Source of the DNA: a virus | Direction: 5' to 3' (one strand) | Virus record (IMG/VR): IMGVR_UViG_3300044614_002195 | Location: 124,001 to 188,000 of that record | DNA length: 64,000 bases | Shown: piece by piece, positions 1,870-11,080 of the stretch | Numbering within the stretch: position 1 is the first letter of the stretch | Layout: every line of letters starts with the position of its first letter | Made by a program: the position numbers and the translations under genes | Notes under the pieces: generated by a model | The model's database searches: none | What the model saw: only the letters and a program-made list of their open reading frames with translations | What the model was told of the DNA's origin: nothing

Positions 1870-2130
1870 ATGAATACATACAAAATCGAAATCGCAGACA
1901 AGACCGGACACACAACTGTAGCTGACCTGACGCTAGATCAGGCAGTAGACGGAATTCTGGAGCACGCCGAGAACAATGCCCGCTGGGTATTCATTAACGG
2001 CGAAAAGTTTGAGTTCCAAGGAACCAACTATCGTGCAGAAGAGAACCTCCAAAAGCTTCGCGGCAAACTCGAGGCAGTGCAGGATCCTGCTGTGCTCCTG
2101 ACCGGTATTCTGATCGGCGGCCACAAGTAA
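1870..2130 (+). CDS. Small protein ending in Gly-Gly; possible ubiquitin-like modifier
   Basis: 86 residues. The first half reads as strand-strand-helix-strand: YKIEIADK, TTVADLT, LDQAVDGILEHAENNA, RWVFINGEKFEF, an order compatible with a beta-grasp fold. The second half is probably helical, and the protein ends ILIGGHK, so a Gly-Gly pair lies two residues from the end. It sits upstream of JAB and E1-like genes, which makes a processed modifier conceivable. That is inference only: the helical C-terminal half is not typical of ubiquitin relatives. The gene is followed by a strong terminator. Start at ATG 1870 after an A/C-rich leader with a hairpin. Confidence 0.7.
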   Translation: MNTYKIEIADKTGHTTVADLTLDQAVDGILEHAENNARWVFINGEKFEFQGTNYRAEENLQKLRGKLEAVQDPAVLLTGILIGGHK

Positions 2131-2152
2131 ATCAGACAGGTCAATCAAAATC

Positions 2153-2190
2153 AAACCCCCTGGTGAGCAATCATCAGGGGGTTTCTTTTT
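2153..2190 (+). terminator. Intrinsic terminator after the 86-aa gene
   Basis: A perfect 10-bp stem (AAACCCCCTG / CAGGGGGTTT) with a 12-base loop is followed by CTTTTT. It separates the 86-residue gene from the 699-residue gene, whose ATG is 45 bases further on. Confidence 0.85.
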
Positions 2191-2234
2191 ACCCTTCGGG
2201 GGAGACACATACCACTTATAAAATAATAAATACT

Positions 2235-4334
2235 ATGGACCTACCTTATAAATCTTTTTTAAAAATAGCCAAACAAACACAAACATTAAGCAAGTACGTC
2301 AAGACAATGGACGTAAGCATCGATAAATCTACTGAATATGTGGATAATCAATATGTACCTACAGTAAAATTAGCTTACACAAGTCTACACTTCGATACGG
2401 TGGCAGACATGCATGCCTACTCCAAGTATCTACCTATACCCACACATAAGCTTAAAATAGGTGAAGACATCAGATACCAAGATCTTCAAGCAAACATAGC
2501 TCAACGTGGCGGATGGGACAATACGCACGTTATGCAATTTTTAAGACAGGATAGCTCTAAGGGCGAGCCTTCCGTAAAGCTTATCCCTGAAGAAACAGCG
2601 TATGCTTTTCGCCCTAATATAATCAAGCTCGCTCCTATCGAGTATACAGAAGGAGACTATACATACAGAATCCTTACAAACCAGAGTAGTAAAAACTATA
2701 CCGCTCGTATTCGAGTTATAGCTAGAAACGATGAGCCTATTTACGATTACCTGGATAAAGGGTTTTTCGTAATGACTGTTAATGAAAAATCTGACGAATT
2801 AACTAAGCCTTCGTTTGTTGTGTCAGATAGCTATGATGTGAATACTGCACACATTTTTATGATGTGTAAGCTACAGCATAACCTAATCAGTATGCTGAAA
2901 GACGAATGCTTTGTGAGTAAGTATGACGCAGAAATGCTTAAACTTAAAATGCTCAGAAAGCTAACTCCTGAAGCTAAAGCGTCATACTTGAAGCATTCGA
3001 AGGCGATTGATGAAGACTATCGTAAGAATACTACACTGGTAGTAGTTGGGAAATTGCTTAGCGGCGAAATTAAAAAAACGACTATTAGAGAAGTAGAGTT
3101 TTCAGCTACAACAGCAAAGTATGAGAATACTGAAATTGAAGCTGAGGATCTCATGACTGTACTGTCAAGAGACCTTGATTTTAATAGCGAGTTTGACATC
3201 TATGCTGTGGCTCAACTGTATGCCAATTATGCTGAAAAGTGCTTGGACGCTAAAGGCTGGAGTTACACAGAAATTGATGACATCAATGCTGGTGCAAATG
3301 AGCTCAAAAAGAAGAGTCTGCCTACGTTTAAAATAAACGGAATCAGTATATCTGCGGCAGTTTCTTATACAGGACAAAGGTACTTAAACGACACCAGGAT
3401 TAATCAGGACGAGGTGGCAAAGGCCATATACCGCGCTTCCTGCTATAGGTCAGCTGAAGACTATAATTTGTTCCTAAAGAGTATCAGCCGCATGAGTATC
3501 AAGAGACATGATATTATTGCAAATGGCCTGCAGGTAAAGATTCACGCAGGTATGACCATAGAAGAATTCAGGGAATCTACTCCTGGTGTAAATGCTCCTG
3601 CCCTTAAATTTGTGATTGATAAGCAAGATAAGCGTATCAAGCTGTATATTGATGAAAATCGACAAGTGCCTGTAGATATCAGCGGGCTGATCAAGAAGGT
3701 ACAAACGATCAACTCAAAAACAAACAATAGATCGTTTTACGATAGGTCAGACAATGCGTACAACTATATCAACAGAGATCATATTTGGGCAGCTGCGGAG
3801 CTTACAAAAGCCCTGATTGAGTTCACTACGTTCCCTGTAAAGTTTAAGAATCTGGAAGATGGTACGGTAATAGAAAAAGACCAGGTACTGATATCTAAAG
3901 ATGACGTTGCTAAACTGTTGAAAGTAGTTGATGAGCAGAACAAAGCTAAAATCGAAAGATCTAAGCAGTTCTTGAGTACTGCAGTAAAGCTTACAGGAGC
4001 TGAAGAAATTGAGTTCTTGGGACAAAAGGCTTATAGGGTAAAGGGTAGCCTTAGAGAATATGCTATAGTCATCAGTAACGCCAAGGTCTACGATTATGAG
4101 ACAAAACAATATCGCTGCATTGTTAATGACAGGCACTATAAAGGTGCAGGTTATGACGACGTGGCCAGCAGACTATTGGCTCTCAAGAACGACTCGGTAA
4201 TGCAAGATCATATCGGCACATTACGAGGGCAGGCTCAGCCAGGAGCTGAAAACGCTCACAATGATTACAGACCTGAACGTGACGTGCAGGACGTAATTAG
4301 CCCGATTGTAGATAAAGCATTCGAGAAAGTATAA
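2235..4334 (+). CDS. Large protein of unknown function upstream of JAB and E1 genes
   Basis: 699 residues from ATG 2235. An upstream GTG at 2163 is in frame but lies inside the terminator, so I reject it. I recognise no domain. The sequence is mixed alpha/beta and charged, with only five Cys (HIFMMCKLQHN, KDECFV, EKCLDAKGW, RASCYRSAED, QYRCIVND) and no membrane segment or signal peptide. The C-terminal about 40 residues look disordered (RGQAQPGAENAHNDYRPERD). Only 2 bases separate it from the JAB gene, and JAB from E1 by 1 base, so the three are one translational unit. It could be the conjugation partner, the target or a scaffold of the cassette; the sequence does not say which. Confidence 0.85.
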   Translation: MDLPYKSFLKIAKQTQTLSKYVKTMDVSIDKSTEYVDNQYVPTVKLAYTSLHFDTVADMHAYSKYLPIPTHKLKIGEDIRYQDLQANIAQRGGWDNTHVMQFLRQDSSKGEPSVKLIPEETAYAFRPNIIKLAPIEYTEGDYTYRILTNQSSKNYTARIRVIARNDEPIYDYLDKGFFVMTVNEKSDELTKPSFVVSDSYDVNTAHIFMMCKLQHNLISMLKDECFVSKYDAEMLKLKMLRKLTPEAKASYLKHSKAIDEDYRKNTTLVVVGKLLSGEIKKTTIREVEFSATTAKYENTEIEAEDLMTVLSRDLDFNSEFDIYAVAQLYANYAEKCLDAKGWSYTEIDDINAGANELKKKSLPTFKINGISISAAVSYTGQRYLNDTRINQDEVAKAIYRASCYRSAEDYNLFLKSISRMSIKRHDIIANGLQVKIHAGMTIEEFRESTPGVNAPALKFVIDKQDKRIKLYIDENRQVPVDISGLIKKVQTINSKTNNRSFYDRSDNAYNYINRDHIWAAAELTKALIEFTTFPVKFKNLEDGTVIEKDQVLISKDDVAKLLKVVDEQNKAKIERSKQFLSTAVKLTGAEEIEFLGQKAYRVKGSLREYAIVISNAKVYDYETKQYRCIVNDRHYKGAGYDDVASRLLALKNDSVMQDHIGTLRGQAQPGAENAHNDYRPERDVQDVISPIVDKAFEKV

Positions 4335-4336
4335 TT

Positions 4337-4771
4337 ATGTATATATTCAGATACGGTATAGAATCGTTCCTTAAAGCCATGATTGGTGCTTCTCTAGAGT
4401 GTACAAGCACCAAAGAGGAGGAAGGCGGTATTATCATGGAAAAAGATGCAGTGTATGAGTTCGTAAGAGTTAAAAATGTTTACGAAGGCACAGACAGAGC
4501 CTCAGGATTATATGAGACAGATCAAGAAGAGTTGTCTCAATTGATATTCTCCAGAGTCTGTAAAGGCTGGAAAATGCATGCCAGCTTTCATACGCATCCA
4601 TCGTTCAGTCCTACTCCTAGCAGCCTTGATTTGGATAAACTATTTCAAGGCTTTAGATACAACATCATATGGTCACCAACGCACAGAACATTCTCCTATT
4701 CAGCATGGATGGGTGAAGACTCGTATGTGACATACCTACCTATTAATACAATCGAGAAATTAATTAAATAA
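4337..4771 (+). CDS. JAB/JAMM-domain metalloprotease (Mov34/MPN family)
   Basis: 144 residues forming one compact JAB domain. The zinc site is readable: candidate glutamate E29 in EEEGGII, then H85-T-H87-P-x5-P94-S95-x-x-D98 (HTHPSFSPTPSSLD). Proteins with this signature remove ubiquitin-like proteins or mature their C-termini; other JAB proteins cleave peptidoglycan or tail components. Position directly before an E1-like gene, rather than beside tail genes, favours the ubiquitin-type reading. The stop is followed after one base by the E1 start. No signal peptide, so cytoplasmic. Confidence 0.88.
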   Translation: MYIFRYGIESFLKAMIGASLECTSTKEEEGGIIMEKDAVYEFVRVKNVYEGTDRASGLYETDQEELSQLIFSRVCKGWKMHASFHTHPSFSPTPSSLDLDKLFQGFRYNIIWSPTHRTFSYSAWMGEDSYVTYLPINTIEKLIK

Positions 4772-4772
4772 T

Positions 4773-5369
4773 ATGAAACTAGACAAAATTGCTATTGCAG
4801 GTGCAGGTGGAATCGGTTCTAACCTGTTGAGTATACTGTTTGACTACGGCTACAACAGAAAGCAGTTCAGCTATATGGATGTCGAGGTTGACATCTATGA
4901 CGATGATACTGTAGATATTAAAAACCTACTGCATCAAAACTTTAAAATTGATGACGTAGGCAAGCATAAAGTTAAAGTGCTAGAAGAAAAATACATTGCG
5001 CAAGGCATTGCTCGTCGGATGACTGAGGATGACTTCAGTAAATACAACGTGATCTTTAGCTGCGTGGACAGTATGTCGTTCAGGAAGAGCCTGTATGAGT
5101 ATGGCTGGAAAGTAGGAAACGATGAGTTATTCTGGGTTGACGGCAGGTGCACTAGCAGGCAAGGTGCATTGTTTACATCCGACATGCTTAAACCTGCGCT
5201 AGAGCCGTTTATTAATGACTCGCAAGAAGAGGGCGGTTGCCTTCTAGCCTACGAGAAAGAGCAGAACATCAGTCATACTCTACCTACAGTGGTAGCAGCT
5301 ATGATGGTTCAAGCATTCCTTAACAAGCTAAGGGGTCAGCAAACATTCAAGTCTGTATTCATGGTGTAA
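4773..5369 (+). CDS. E1/ThiF/MoeB-like adenylating enzyme
   Basis: 198 residues, a minimal Rossmann adenylation domain. Visible landmarks: glycine loop GAGGIGS at 10-16, D43-D45 and N51 with Q55 (DDDTVDIKNLLHQNF), K64/K66 after VGKHK, and D99 with R104 (FSCVDSMSFRKSLYEY). These match the ATP and Mg sites of ThiF/MoeB/E1 enzymes, which activate the C-terminal Gly of ubiquitin-like proteins. There is no CxxC zinc pair. C126 (DGRCTSRQG) and C156 (EEGGCLLAYE) are candidates for a thioester cysteine. Its stop overlaps the next start by one base (TAATGG). Confidence 0.88.
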   Translation: MKLDKIAIAGAGGIGSNLLSILFDYGYNRKQFSYMDVEVDIYDDDTVDIKNLLHQNFKIDDVGKHKVKVLEEKYIAQGIARRMTEDDFSKYNVIFSCVDSMSFRKSLYEYGWKVGNDELFWVDGRCTSRQGALFTSDMLKPALEPFINDSQEEGGCLLAYEKEQNISHTLPTVVAAMMVQAFLNKLRGQQTFKSVFMV

Positions 5370-5650
5370 TGGCGGACTTAAATGACAAACAGCAGCAGAC
5401 AATAACAGCTGAAAAATATCTTCTAGGTATCCTTGACAAGATCTGCCTAACCGTAGATCTTCGTAGGGATGAGTGGGAGTTAAACAAAGATTTGCTTATA
5501 GCCATAAGTAAAAGCTATAAGACAAAAAAGAAAAAAGATACCGCATTGTTCTATAGCTATGATCAATGCTTCAATATGCTAAAAAAACTAAATATAAAGA
5601 TATCGTCAAAGTTCAAATGGTTCACAAATCTGGAAGAACACGTAAAGTAA
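5369..5650 (+). CDS. Small hypothetical protein in the E1-JAB operon
   Basis: 93 residues, helical and Lys-rich (SKSYKTKKKKDTALFYSYDQCFNMLKKL is split by a short basic stretch). No family recognised. It starts one base into the E1 stop codon, so it is translated with the cassette. A 46-base A/C-rich leader then separates it from the SSB-like gene. Confidence 0.7.
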   Translation: MADLNDKQQQTITAEKYLLGILDKICLTVDLRRDEWELNKDLLIAISKSYKTKKKKDTALFYSYDQCFNMLKKLNIKISSKFKWFTNLEEHVK

Positions 5651-6774: not shown

Positions 6775-7977
6775 ATGGATATAGACACATACCTGAACTC
6801 AATCAAGAAAAACTTCGGCAAGACCTTCAAGTCTGAAGCTGTTAATCTTGAACTGAATACGGCAGATAAAGAACTCCCGCCTACAGGCATTGTGTTGGAT
6901 AACCCGTTGTTAGAGTACGCATTCGACCGTAGGTTTATGGCCTACGGTCGGTGCTATCTACTCTACGGCAAGAAGGGCTGCTCCAAGACAACGCTATTGT
7001 TTGACCTGGCTAAAGTATTCCAGAAAGCTGGAGGAAAAATGTTTTGGATCGAGACCGAGAACGCTCCTGACTTCAGATATATGGAGTTACAGGGAGTAGA
7101 TCCGAAGCATGTAATCTACCACAACCCTAAAAGCCTGGAAGAGGCTCTTACGTTGTGCAAGATCATCATTCAAAACTATGCTAAGCATAGCGACGGCAAA
7201 ACACCTATCCTTATCGCACTAGACAGTATTGCAGGTGCTAGTACTGACTATGAGCGTGACCAAGATGTGATTGGTCAAACCAAAGTTGGCGAGCACGCAA
7301 AACTGATGAGTGCATTCTATAGGAATATTATTCCGTATCTAGAGTGTGAAAACATGGTGTTTGTTGCTACCAATCAGCTCAAAGAGCAGATTGGCGGAAT
7401 GACAGGCTTCGGTACAGAAAAGCCAGAAGCATTGATTGGTGGTGAAGCTCAGCGCTTTAACTCTACTTATCAATTCAAAGTGGCTCGAATCAAGGATAAT
7501 CTTGAAGAAGATCATATGGGAGTAAAGCGCAAGTCAGGCTCTACTCACACCCTGACAGTAAAGCGTAATAAGCTTGGTCGTGAGGGTAATAGCCAGAAGA
7601 TTGAATTCGATATCCATATCAATGGAGGTATTGATTGGTACTCTCCTCTAGTACGTATGCTGGGTGAAAATTATCCTGCATTGGTCGGTAAAACTGGAGG
7701 CTGGTATACCTGGAAAACTCCAGAAGTGCCATTCACTATTGATGTTGAAGGAGAACAGCAAACCCATAAAATTGACACAGAAAAGAAATTCCGTGAGCAA
7801 GATCTAGGGTTTGTAATCCAGAATAGTAGTGCAGCCAAAGAGATAGTGCGCAAAGCATTCGGTATTCCTGATATGCCTGCCCCTGAACTTGAGATGGAAA
7901 TCGAAAAAGTTAACAAGACAAAACGTAAAAGAGTAAGTGAATTAGAAGTTGAACCACTGGTCGAAAGCTATGAGTAA
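6775..7977 (+). CDS. uvsX: UvsX/RecA-like recombinase
   Basis: 400 residues. Walker A is at 65-73 (GKKGCSKTT, a variant with Cys and Ser in the loop), Walker B is about PILIALDSIAG near 143-153, and a loop-2-like segment is TNQLKEQIGGMTGFG. The family forms filaments on ssDNA, pairs homologous DNA and supports recombination-dependent replication. The last about 40 residues are basic and acidic, typical of a regulatory tail. It follows an SSB-like gene and is followed two genes later by a RuvC-like resolvase, a coherent recombination set. Confidence 0.88.
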   Translation: MDIDTYLNSIKKNFGKTFKSEAVNLELNTADKELPPTGIVLDNPLLEYAFDRRFMAYGRCYLLYGKKGCSKTTLLFDLAKVFQKAGGKMFWIETENAPDFRYMELQGVDPKHVIYHNPKSLEEALTLCKIIIQNYAKHSDGKTPILIALDSIAGASTDYERDQDVIGQTKVGEHAKLMSAFYRNIIPYLECENMVFVATNQLKEQIGGMTGFGTEKPEALIGGEAQRFNSTYQFKVARIKDNLEEDHMGVKRKSGSTHTLTVKRNKLGREGNSQKIEFDIHINGGIDWYSPLVRMLGENYPALVGKTGGWYTWKTPEVPFTIDVEGEQQTHKIDTEKKFREQDLGFVIQNSSAAKEIVRKAFGIPDMPAPELEMEIEKVNKTKRKRVSELEVEPLVESYE

Positions 7978-8443
7978 AAAGGAAATTGCTTGGTACAGTA
8001 CAGTATTTGACGAGCAAAGTAATCGCTTTGTCAAAACTGATAAAGTTACAGGAAAGTCGTGGTCTTGGCCTTACAAGGAAAGACCTTCACGTAAAACTCA
8101 CACAGTAAGCAGCAATGGCGTCACTATAGATAAACTGACAGCCGCTGGGTTTAAAGTTAGAATAAGACATCTCAGGTATGCGCTGTATATTCCTAATGAT
8201 TCTTTCATAGGATTGTATATAGGCGTGAGGGAGATTGTCGTACCTTCTACTTTTAGACACAGCCCTCATTACAAGCTGCAGCCTAAAGGAGGGTTTACAC
8301 ATATTACGATCAATATGAAAGACCAAGACTATATCTGTCTATCAAGTGAATGCTCTAAAAAAGATCCCTTCTGCTATAACGTGGGGATTGCTACAGCATT
8401 ATCTCGGCTCACTGCCGGAGACTTAAGTCGGTTGGGTTTGTAA
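7970..8443 (+). CDS. Hypothetical protein
   Basis: 157 residues from ATG 7970, which overlaps the recombinase stop by 8 bases; an upstream in-frame ATG at 7949 is less likely. No recognised domain. Contains WYSTVFDEQSNRF and a C-terminal CLSSECSKKDPFCYNVG with three Cys. Co-translated with the recombinase. Confidence 0.7.
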   Translation: MSKKEIAWYSTVFDEQSNRFVKTDKVTGKSWSWPYKERPSRKTHTVSSNGVTIDKLTAAGFKVRIRHLRYALYIPNDSFIGLYIGVREIVVPSTFRHSPHYKLQPKGGFTHITINMKDQDYICLSSECSKKDPFCYNVGIATALSRLTAGDLSRLGL

Positions 8444-10681: not shown

Positions 10682-11072
10682 GGGGGTGATTTGGTTTCGA
10701 CTAGATATGAGCCCTTATAGATGCATGTAGAGGAAGCCTGGTAGGCCTCTTAAAAAATCTAGGCAAAATAAACGCAGAGTCCTTTGACTACGCTCCCTCA
10801 GTAGCAGAAGCAGACGCATTCCTCGAAGCCACTGGCTTCGTTGGTGCTGAGCTCCTCGCTGCATAAGGTACAGGCCGGATGCTATTAAAAGCCTGTAAAC
10901 GTTAGTAGCTAGTGCTTGAAATTAGGACTGTTATTCAAGCAGAACAAGAACGGTTCAAAAGAAATTATATAGTTTGATTGTTGACGCTATAATTTCTTGC
11001 AAAAAACAATCTAAGCATGTAGATTCTATAAGATAAGTATTTAGGACAGGGGTTCAACTCCCCTCACCTCCA
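10682..11072 (+). ncRNA. ssrA: tmRNA (ssrA)
   Basis: 391 bases. The tRNA-like ends pair as GGGGGTG (10682) with CACCTCC (11065-11071). The third pair is G-U, the alanine identity element. Near the 5' end is the conserved TTTCGAC and near the 3' end TTAGGACAGGGGTTCAACT, a standard T-arm. CCA is not encoded. The internal reading frame starts at GCA 10774, preceded by TAAAC as in other tmRNAs. It rescues stalled ribosomes with a proteolysis tag. The 3' part has several stem candidates, e.g. AGAAATTATA with TATAATTTCT, for pseudoknots. Confidence 0.93.
10774..10866 (+). other. tmRNA tag-peptide reading frame (30 codons)
   Basis: The frame from GCA to TAA encodes 30 residues. It begins AESFDYAPS and ends AELLAA. 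The end matches the hydrophobic (A)LAA-type degradation signal of bacterial tags, but the length is about three times the common 8-12 residues. The codons give A, E and D in abundance. An alternative resume codon one triplet upstream (AAC) would only add Asn. Confidence 0.8.
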
Positions 11073-11080
11073 CTTTTAAT

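Follow-up and report, generated by a model that had tools for sequence, protein, structure and literature searches.

In bacteria, most of what is known of ubiquitin-like conjugation comes from antiphage defence by the host and from plasmid cassettes of unassigned function. In the 'type 6d' operons described by Iyer, Burroughs and Aravind in 2006, it was predicted that the E1s might load a ubiquitin-like protein onto a cysteine and then onto lysines, with a JAB peptidase reversing the reaction (PMC1779556); the same study predicted that E1-like enzymes accompanied by a JAB protein and a glycine-ended ubiquitin-like protein might pass it directly to lysines. Judged by gene content, type 6d appears to be the same as PRTRC, which is carried on plasmids of Deinococcus, Sphingomonas, Alteromonas and Azospira, sometimes near replication or partition genes such as dnaN and parB. 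Here we describe a four-gene phage cassette in a 64,000-nucleotide stretch (positions 124,001 to 188,000; hereafter the window) of the 198,289-base virus record IMGVR_UViG_3300044614_002195, encoding a putative modifier of 86 amino acids, a 699-residue partner, a JAB/JAMM metallopeptidase and a minimal E1. On the most likely reading, the cassette is related to the ubiquitin-like PRTRC/"6d" cassettes but has no E2, and it probably supplies a self-contained cycle of ubiquitin-like conjugation and deconjugation for the phage's own DNA replication and recombination. If so, ubiquitin-like tagging would be something that phages do for purposes of their own, with its genes a fixed part of the core next to SSB and UvsX. 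Among open-licence papers, we found none on such a phage cassette.

All four genes lie on the given (+) strand, and a check of open reading frames bore out the coordinates and spacing of an earlier, sequence-only reading of the window. The modifier gene (1870..2130) is followed by the gene for the 699-residue partner (2235..4334, from an ATG at 2235 to a stop at 4334), which is separated by 2 bases from the JAB gene (144 amino acids, 4337..4771) and that by 1 base from the E1 gene (198 amino acids, 4773..5369). The modifier gene is set apart from the 699-residue gene and the rest of the enzyme operon by an intrinsic terminator (2153..2184, + strand; a 14-pair stem and a T run), the best of the region. 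Among 21 loci, nearly all have a strong hairpin at this place, with a sequence that differs between loci. An alternative GTG start at 2163 would extend the partner to 723 residues, but it falls within the terminator hairpin and the relatives begin at the ATG position, so we take 699 residues as the right length.

The survey for the same gene order in other phages that the sequence-only reading had suggested returned 28 IMG/VR contigs besides the window, holding the E1 at 51–98% identity. Wherever a contig spans the region, all four genes occur together and in a single order: gp88, modifier, 699-residue family, JAB, E1, often a 93-residue protein, a putative single-stranded DNA-binding protein (SSB), UvsX and usually a RuvC-like gene. 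The window itself reads gp88, cassette, putative SSB (without a family match), UvsX and RuvC-like gene, which bears out the proposed place just before SSB and UvsX and is not a tail-assembly context. Ratios of non-synonymous to synonymous substitution rates (dN/dS) were 0.03–0.11 for the modifier, 0.09–0.10 for the 699-residue protein, 0.04–0.06 for the JAB protein and 0.04 for the E1, the last from the sole unsaturated comparison; the cassette genes are thus under purifying selection where this is measurable. With 28 more contigs repeating the gene order and with this selection on the genes, the cassette is confirmed as more than a chance arrangement. Relatives of the 699-residue protein were absent from 50,697 cultured-phage records and from a bacterial genome scan, and it looks as if a lineage of large uncultured phages holds the cassette as a fixed core of a DNA-replication gene block.

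The 86-residue protein is well supported as the modifier by its sequence pattern and predicted fold, as the sequence-only reading had proposed. First, the motif [LIM][TS][GA]x[LV]xGG is kept in 27 of 27 modifier reading frames from the window and the related contigs, whereas the residues behind the Gly-Gly (GG) range in number from 0 to about 150. The window protein ends LLTGILIGG-HK; in most others the tail has 1 to about 9 residues and varies in sequence, and three (L013, L019 and L052) end exactly at GG. In two loci (L054:4644-5375 and L055:4922-5407), the GG lies inside the protein, with a longer stretch behind it. These two stretches can be aligned over about 60 residues, but the profile used had been built from both and pairwise BLAST did not join them; they may represent a co-translated partner released by the JAB peptidase. 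A kept GG with such variation behind it is what one would see in a precursor that is cleaved after the GG. Second, an AlphaFold model (predicted local distance difference test, pLDDT, 79) has the strand and helix order E E H E E H E with a disordered C terminus, and its best PDB fold matches (E 0.016–0.06) are for the most part to proteins of the ubiquitin-like or another beta-grasp type, a bacterial complex of E1, E2 and ubiquitin-like protein standing at rank 24. The model thus points weakly to a ubiquitin-like beta-grasp. The modifier had no profile similarity to PRTRC protein C.

The two enzymes have the intact active sites that had been read from the window alone. The JAB protein matches PF14464 above cut-off (E = 3e-7) and consists of the JAB domain only, and its JAMM motif is whole and invariant in 14 sequences (Glu27/Glu28 and His85-Thr-His87-x7-Ser95-x2-Asp98). 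The peptidase is also kept in the three loci whose modifiers already end in GG, where no trimming is needed, so it probably serves in deconjugation as well as in trimming. The E1 matches PF00899 above cut-off (E = 4e-17). Its GAGGIGS loop, Asp43, Lys66 and Asp99 form an adenylation site that is invariant in 13 sequences and aligns with those of MoeB and ThiF; the equally invariant Cys156, which aligns with Cys184 of Escherichia coli ThiF and with the SCS cysteine of PRTRC ThiF, is the candidate thioester, or catalytic, cysteine. An ATP site and a cysteine are thus both present. In one relative (L050:6682-8456), the E1 gene is interrupted after DIYDDDTV by about 1.15 kb containing a LAGLIDADG-type reading frame (7061-8032), and Rfam intron models did not match this insert.

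The E1 also links the cassette to PRTRC. Its best NCBIfam model is PRTRC_ThiF (E = 1.9e-12, 47 bits, below the cut-off of 144.75), and tblastn against plasmids returned mainly PRTRC ThiF matches. In a tree, the phage E1s, the E1 of the cultured Flavobacterium phage FpV4 and PRTRC ThiF stand apart from MoeB/ThiF with support of 100/99; support for the phage clade as such is moderate, in a part of the tree where several long branches come together. By this sequence phylogeny, the phage E1 is sister to plasmid PRTRC ThiF.

The 699-residue protein belongs to a family whose members are 22–93% identical to the window protein and always co-occur with the JAB gene; Cys403 and Cys628 are kept in 23 of 23 aligned members. 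An AlphaFold model has a pLDDT of 84 and a predicted template modelling score (pTM) of 0.52, so the domain arrangement is uncertain. The sequence-only reading had cast this protein in the missing E2 role and proposed searching its predicted structure for E2, E3 and PRTRC folds. The searches gave no support for an E2: no Pfam E2 family matched in the 23 members, PHROGs gave nothing, the PDB sequence and fold searches were both empty, and profile comparisons did not relate the family to PRTRC B, F or E (hhalign probability <1% for F and E). An E2 or E3 role is therefore unsupported. Profile comparison with the FpV4 cassette proteins was likewise negative, and there was one BFVD match, an unnamed viral protein (A0A516MG04, E 2e-6). 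The C-terminal beta strands with Cys628 were considered as an E2 beta-meander, which we do not claim. The C terminus has weak DUF7737 similarity in 20 of 23 members, below the Pfam cut-off; a domain common to DUF4132/MolR proteins was considered, but the test with E. coli YehI was negative, so we claim only this weak similarity. What is suggestive is position, not homology: the protein sits between the ubiquitin-like protein and the JAB peptidase, the place that F and the E2-like B take in PRTRC loci. Many relatives (L014, L016, L029, L036, L038, L047 and L050–L053) have an extra gene of about 210–230 codons between the 699-residue gene and JAB. Also considered as an E2, its product instead resembles a PolB/RNase-H type 3′–5′ exonuclease, and its DIET motif reads HIET in some relatives, which suggests loss of a catalytic Asp.

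In the cycle that we favour, the modifier has a gene to itself, with its own terminator, and would be produced with a few extra C-terminal residues, which the JAMM peptidase would trim to expose Gly-Gly. The E1, whose motifs are in place, would adenylate the C-terminal glycine of the modifier and then take the modifier onto Cys156 as a thioester. From there it would pass to lysines, either directly or through the 699-residue protein as ligase or adaptor, unless the 699-residue protein is itself the main substrate; the JAMM peptidase would then take off the tag and recycle it. Of the roles first put forward for the cassette, counter-defence has become less likely than a part in core DNA metabolism.

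Several points weigh against this cycle. It is known here from genes, motifs and models, with covalent conjugates and their targets as predictions. No E2 was recognised in the virus record with PF14460 or PF00179, although the record may be incomplete and an E2 is possible elsewhere; within the cassette, neither an E2 nor an E3 was recognised, and the model of the 699-residue protein matches no solved structure. Taken alone, the match of the modifier to known folds falls short of significance (best E 0.016). Finally, and as a correction to the initial description of the E1, its NLxRQ motif reads NLLHQ, with an invariant His54 in place of Arg. An absent E2, together with a 699-residue partner of no known kin, points to direct transfer from the E1 or to an unrecognised transferase. 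One specific version is, taken whole, unlikely: the 699-residue family would be a new class of ubiquitin-like ligase that needs no E2 and carries the thioester on Cys403 or Cys628, and replication and recombination proteins of the phage itself (SSB, UvsX) would be tagged reversibly, in analogy to SUMO and ubiquitin on eukaryotic PCNA and RPA.

Another explanation, which departs from the favoured cycle solely in what the large protein does, is that the 699-residue protein is the main substrate, to which the modifier is attached and from which JAB removes it as an on/off switch in replication, much as type II CBASS conjugates its own CD-NTase (PMC10097602). In favour are its invariable company and close packing with JAB and E1, and its nature as a faster-evolving, multidomain protein (about 47% identity against about 75% for the E1) of no recognised enzyme family. 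Against it, the invariant Cys403 and Cys628 could equally be catalytic. We regard it as possible, if somewhat doubtful.

The ThiF/MoeB ancestry of the E1, and the presence of JAB proteins in some sulfur-carrier operons (PMC1779556), would suit a different chemistry, that of a sulfur carrier: the GG protein would receive a thiocarboxylate from the E1 for use in a thiolation reaction and would be trimmed or released by JAB, as in CysO/Mec+ or siderophore pathways. This is improbable: the E1 groups with PRTRC ThiF and not with MoeB/ThiF, no metabolic enzyme is among the recognised neighbours, and searches of the record, which may be incomplete, for PAPS reductase (PF01507), rhodanese (PF00581) and cysteine desulfurase (PF00266) families were all negative. 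A role in counter-defence, with the phage set competing with or reversing host ubiquitin-like antiphage conjugation, is decidedly improbable. Host systems of this kind (Bil and type II CBASS) do exist, and the phage JAB and E1 score weakly against the PADLOC JAB and E1-E2 models, but these matches are limited to generic JAB and the E1 nucleotide-site region. Counter-defence genes are usually patchy, whereas this block is fixed in its lineage and embedded with SSB, UvsX and RuvC, which makes counter-defence less likely than a core role in DNA metabolism. A tail-assembly pair of JAB and ubiquitin-like protein is barely credible: the best PHROG of the JAB protein is indeed 5556, 'tail protein' (E 2e-7), but family searches recognised no tail gene nearby and the E1 is without counterpart in the lambda-type sets of PMC1779556.

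Beyond the four genes, the E1 stop codon is overlapped by the gene for the 93-residue protein (5369..5650, + strand), which is seen in most but not all loci and found no match in family searches. The window also encodes a phage transfer-messenger RNA (tmRNA; 10682-11073, Rfam 148.6 bits) with a long tag of 30 residues, AESFDYAPSVAEADAFLEATGFVGAELLAA, followed by four tRNAs. Among the 59 window reading frames of at least 120 amino acids, upstream regions are A-rich with few Shine–Dalgarno-like sites (12 of 59, 5.3 expected), which is Bacteroidota-like.

Among known systems, the tail-assembly pair TapI-TapK of lambda and T1 shares with the cassette a ubiquitin-like protein with C-terminal Gly and a JAB protein but is without an E1 and stands in a structural context. 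The Bil and type II CBASS systems share the chemistry of E1 and JAB peptidase; they require an E2, and their E1 is often fused to E2, with an effector or CD-NTase, none of which is recognised in the phage cassette. In cultured phages, Salmonella phage Arash (OQ632216, L087:1519-4539) has JAB (gp247c) and ThiF (gp246c) side by side; unlike the window, it has an E2-D-like neighbour, gp248c (a weak match, E 0.024), while a GG modifier was not recognised. Its gp246c and gp248c are annotated 'structural protein'. FpV4 (L074:2532-6543) has the same order of ubiquitin-like domain, 420-residue protein, JAB-containing protein and ThiF. Its N-terminal domain, followed by KSGGRG, is ubiquitin-like by eye only, and its E1 places with the phage clade on a long branch with weak support; its proteins are too divergent for profile alignment, and the 420-residue protein is not similar to the 699-residue protein.

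PRTRC is closest, as the sequence-only reading had anticipated from the ubiquitin-type set of E1, JAB and GG modifier. The phage cassette differs from it in lacking the E2-like protein B (Prok-E2_D), the helical protein F and protein E, with one 699-residue protein where F and B stand; its JAB has no N-terminal alpha+beta domain, its ThiF scores under the PRTRC_ThiF cut-off, and no ParB is among the phage neighbours examined. Without the E2, F, E, JAB N-terminal domain and ThiF score of PRTRC, we class it with PRTRC by its way of working and not by membership. The likeness lies in the order of ubiquitin-like protein, large protein or proteins, JAB and ThiF, in a small ubiquitin-like protein with a conserved C-terminal Gly adjoining JAB and E1, and in PRTRC holding the nearest relatives of the phage E1. 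With so compact a four-gene set, the long-standing question of what PRTRC-type systems modify becomes directly testable.

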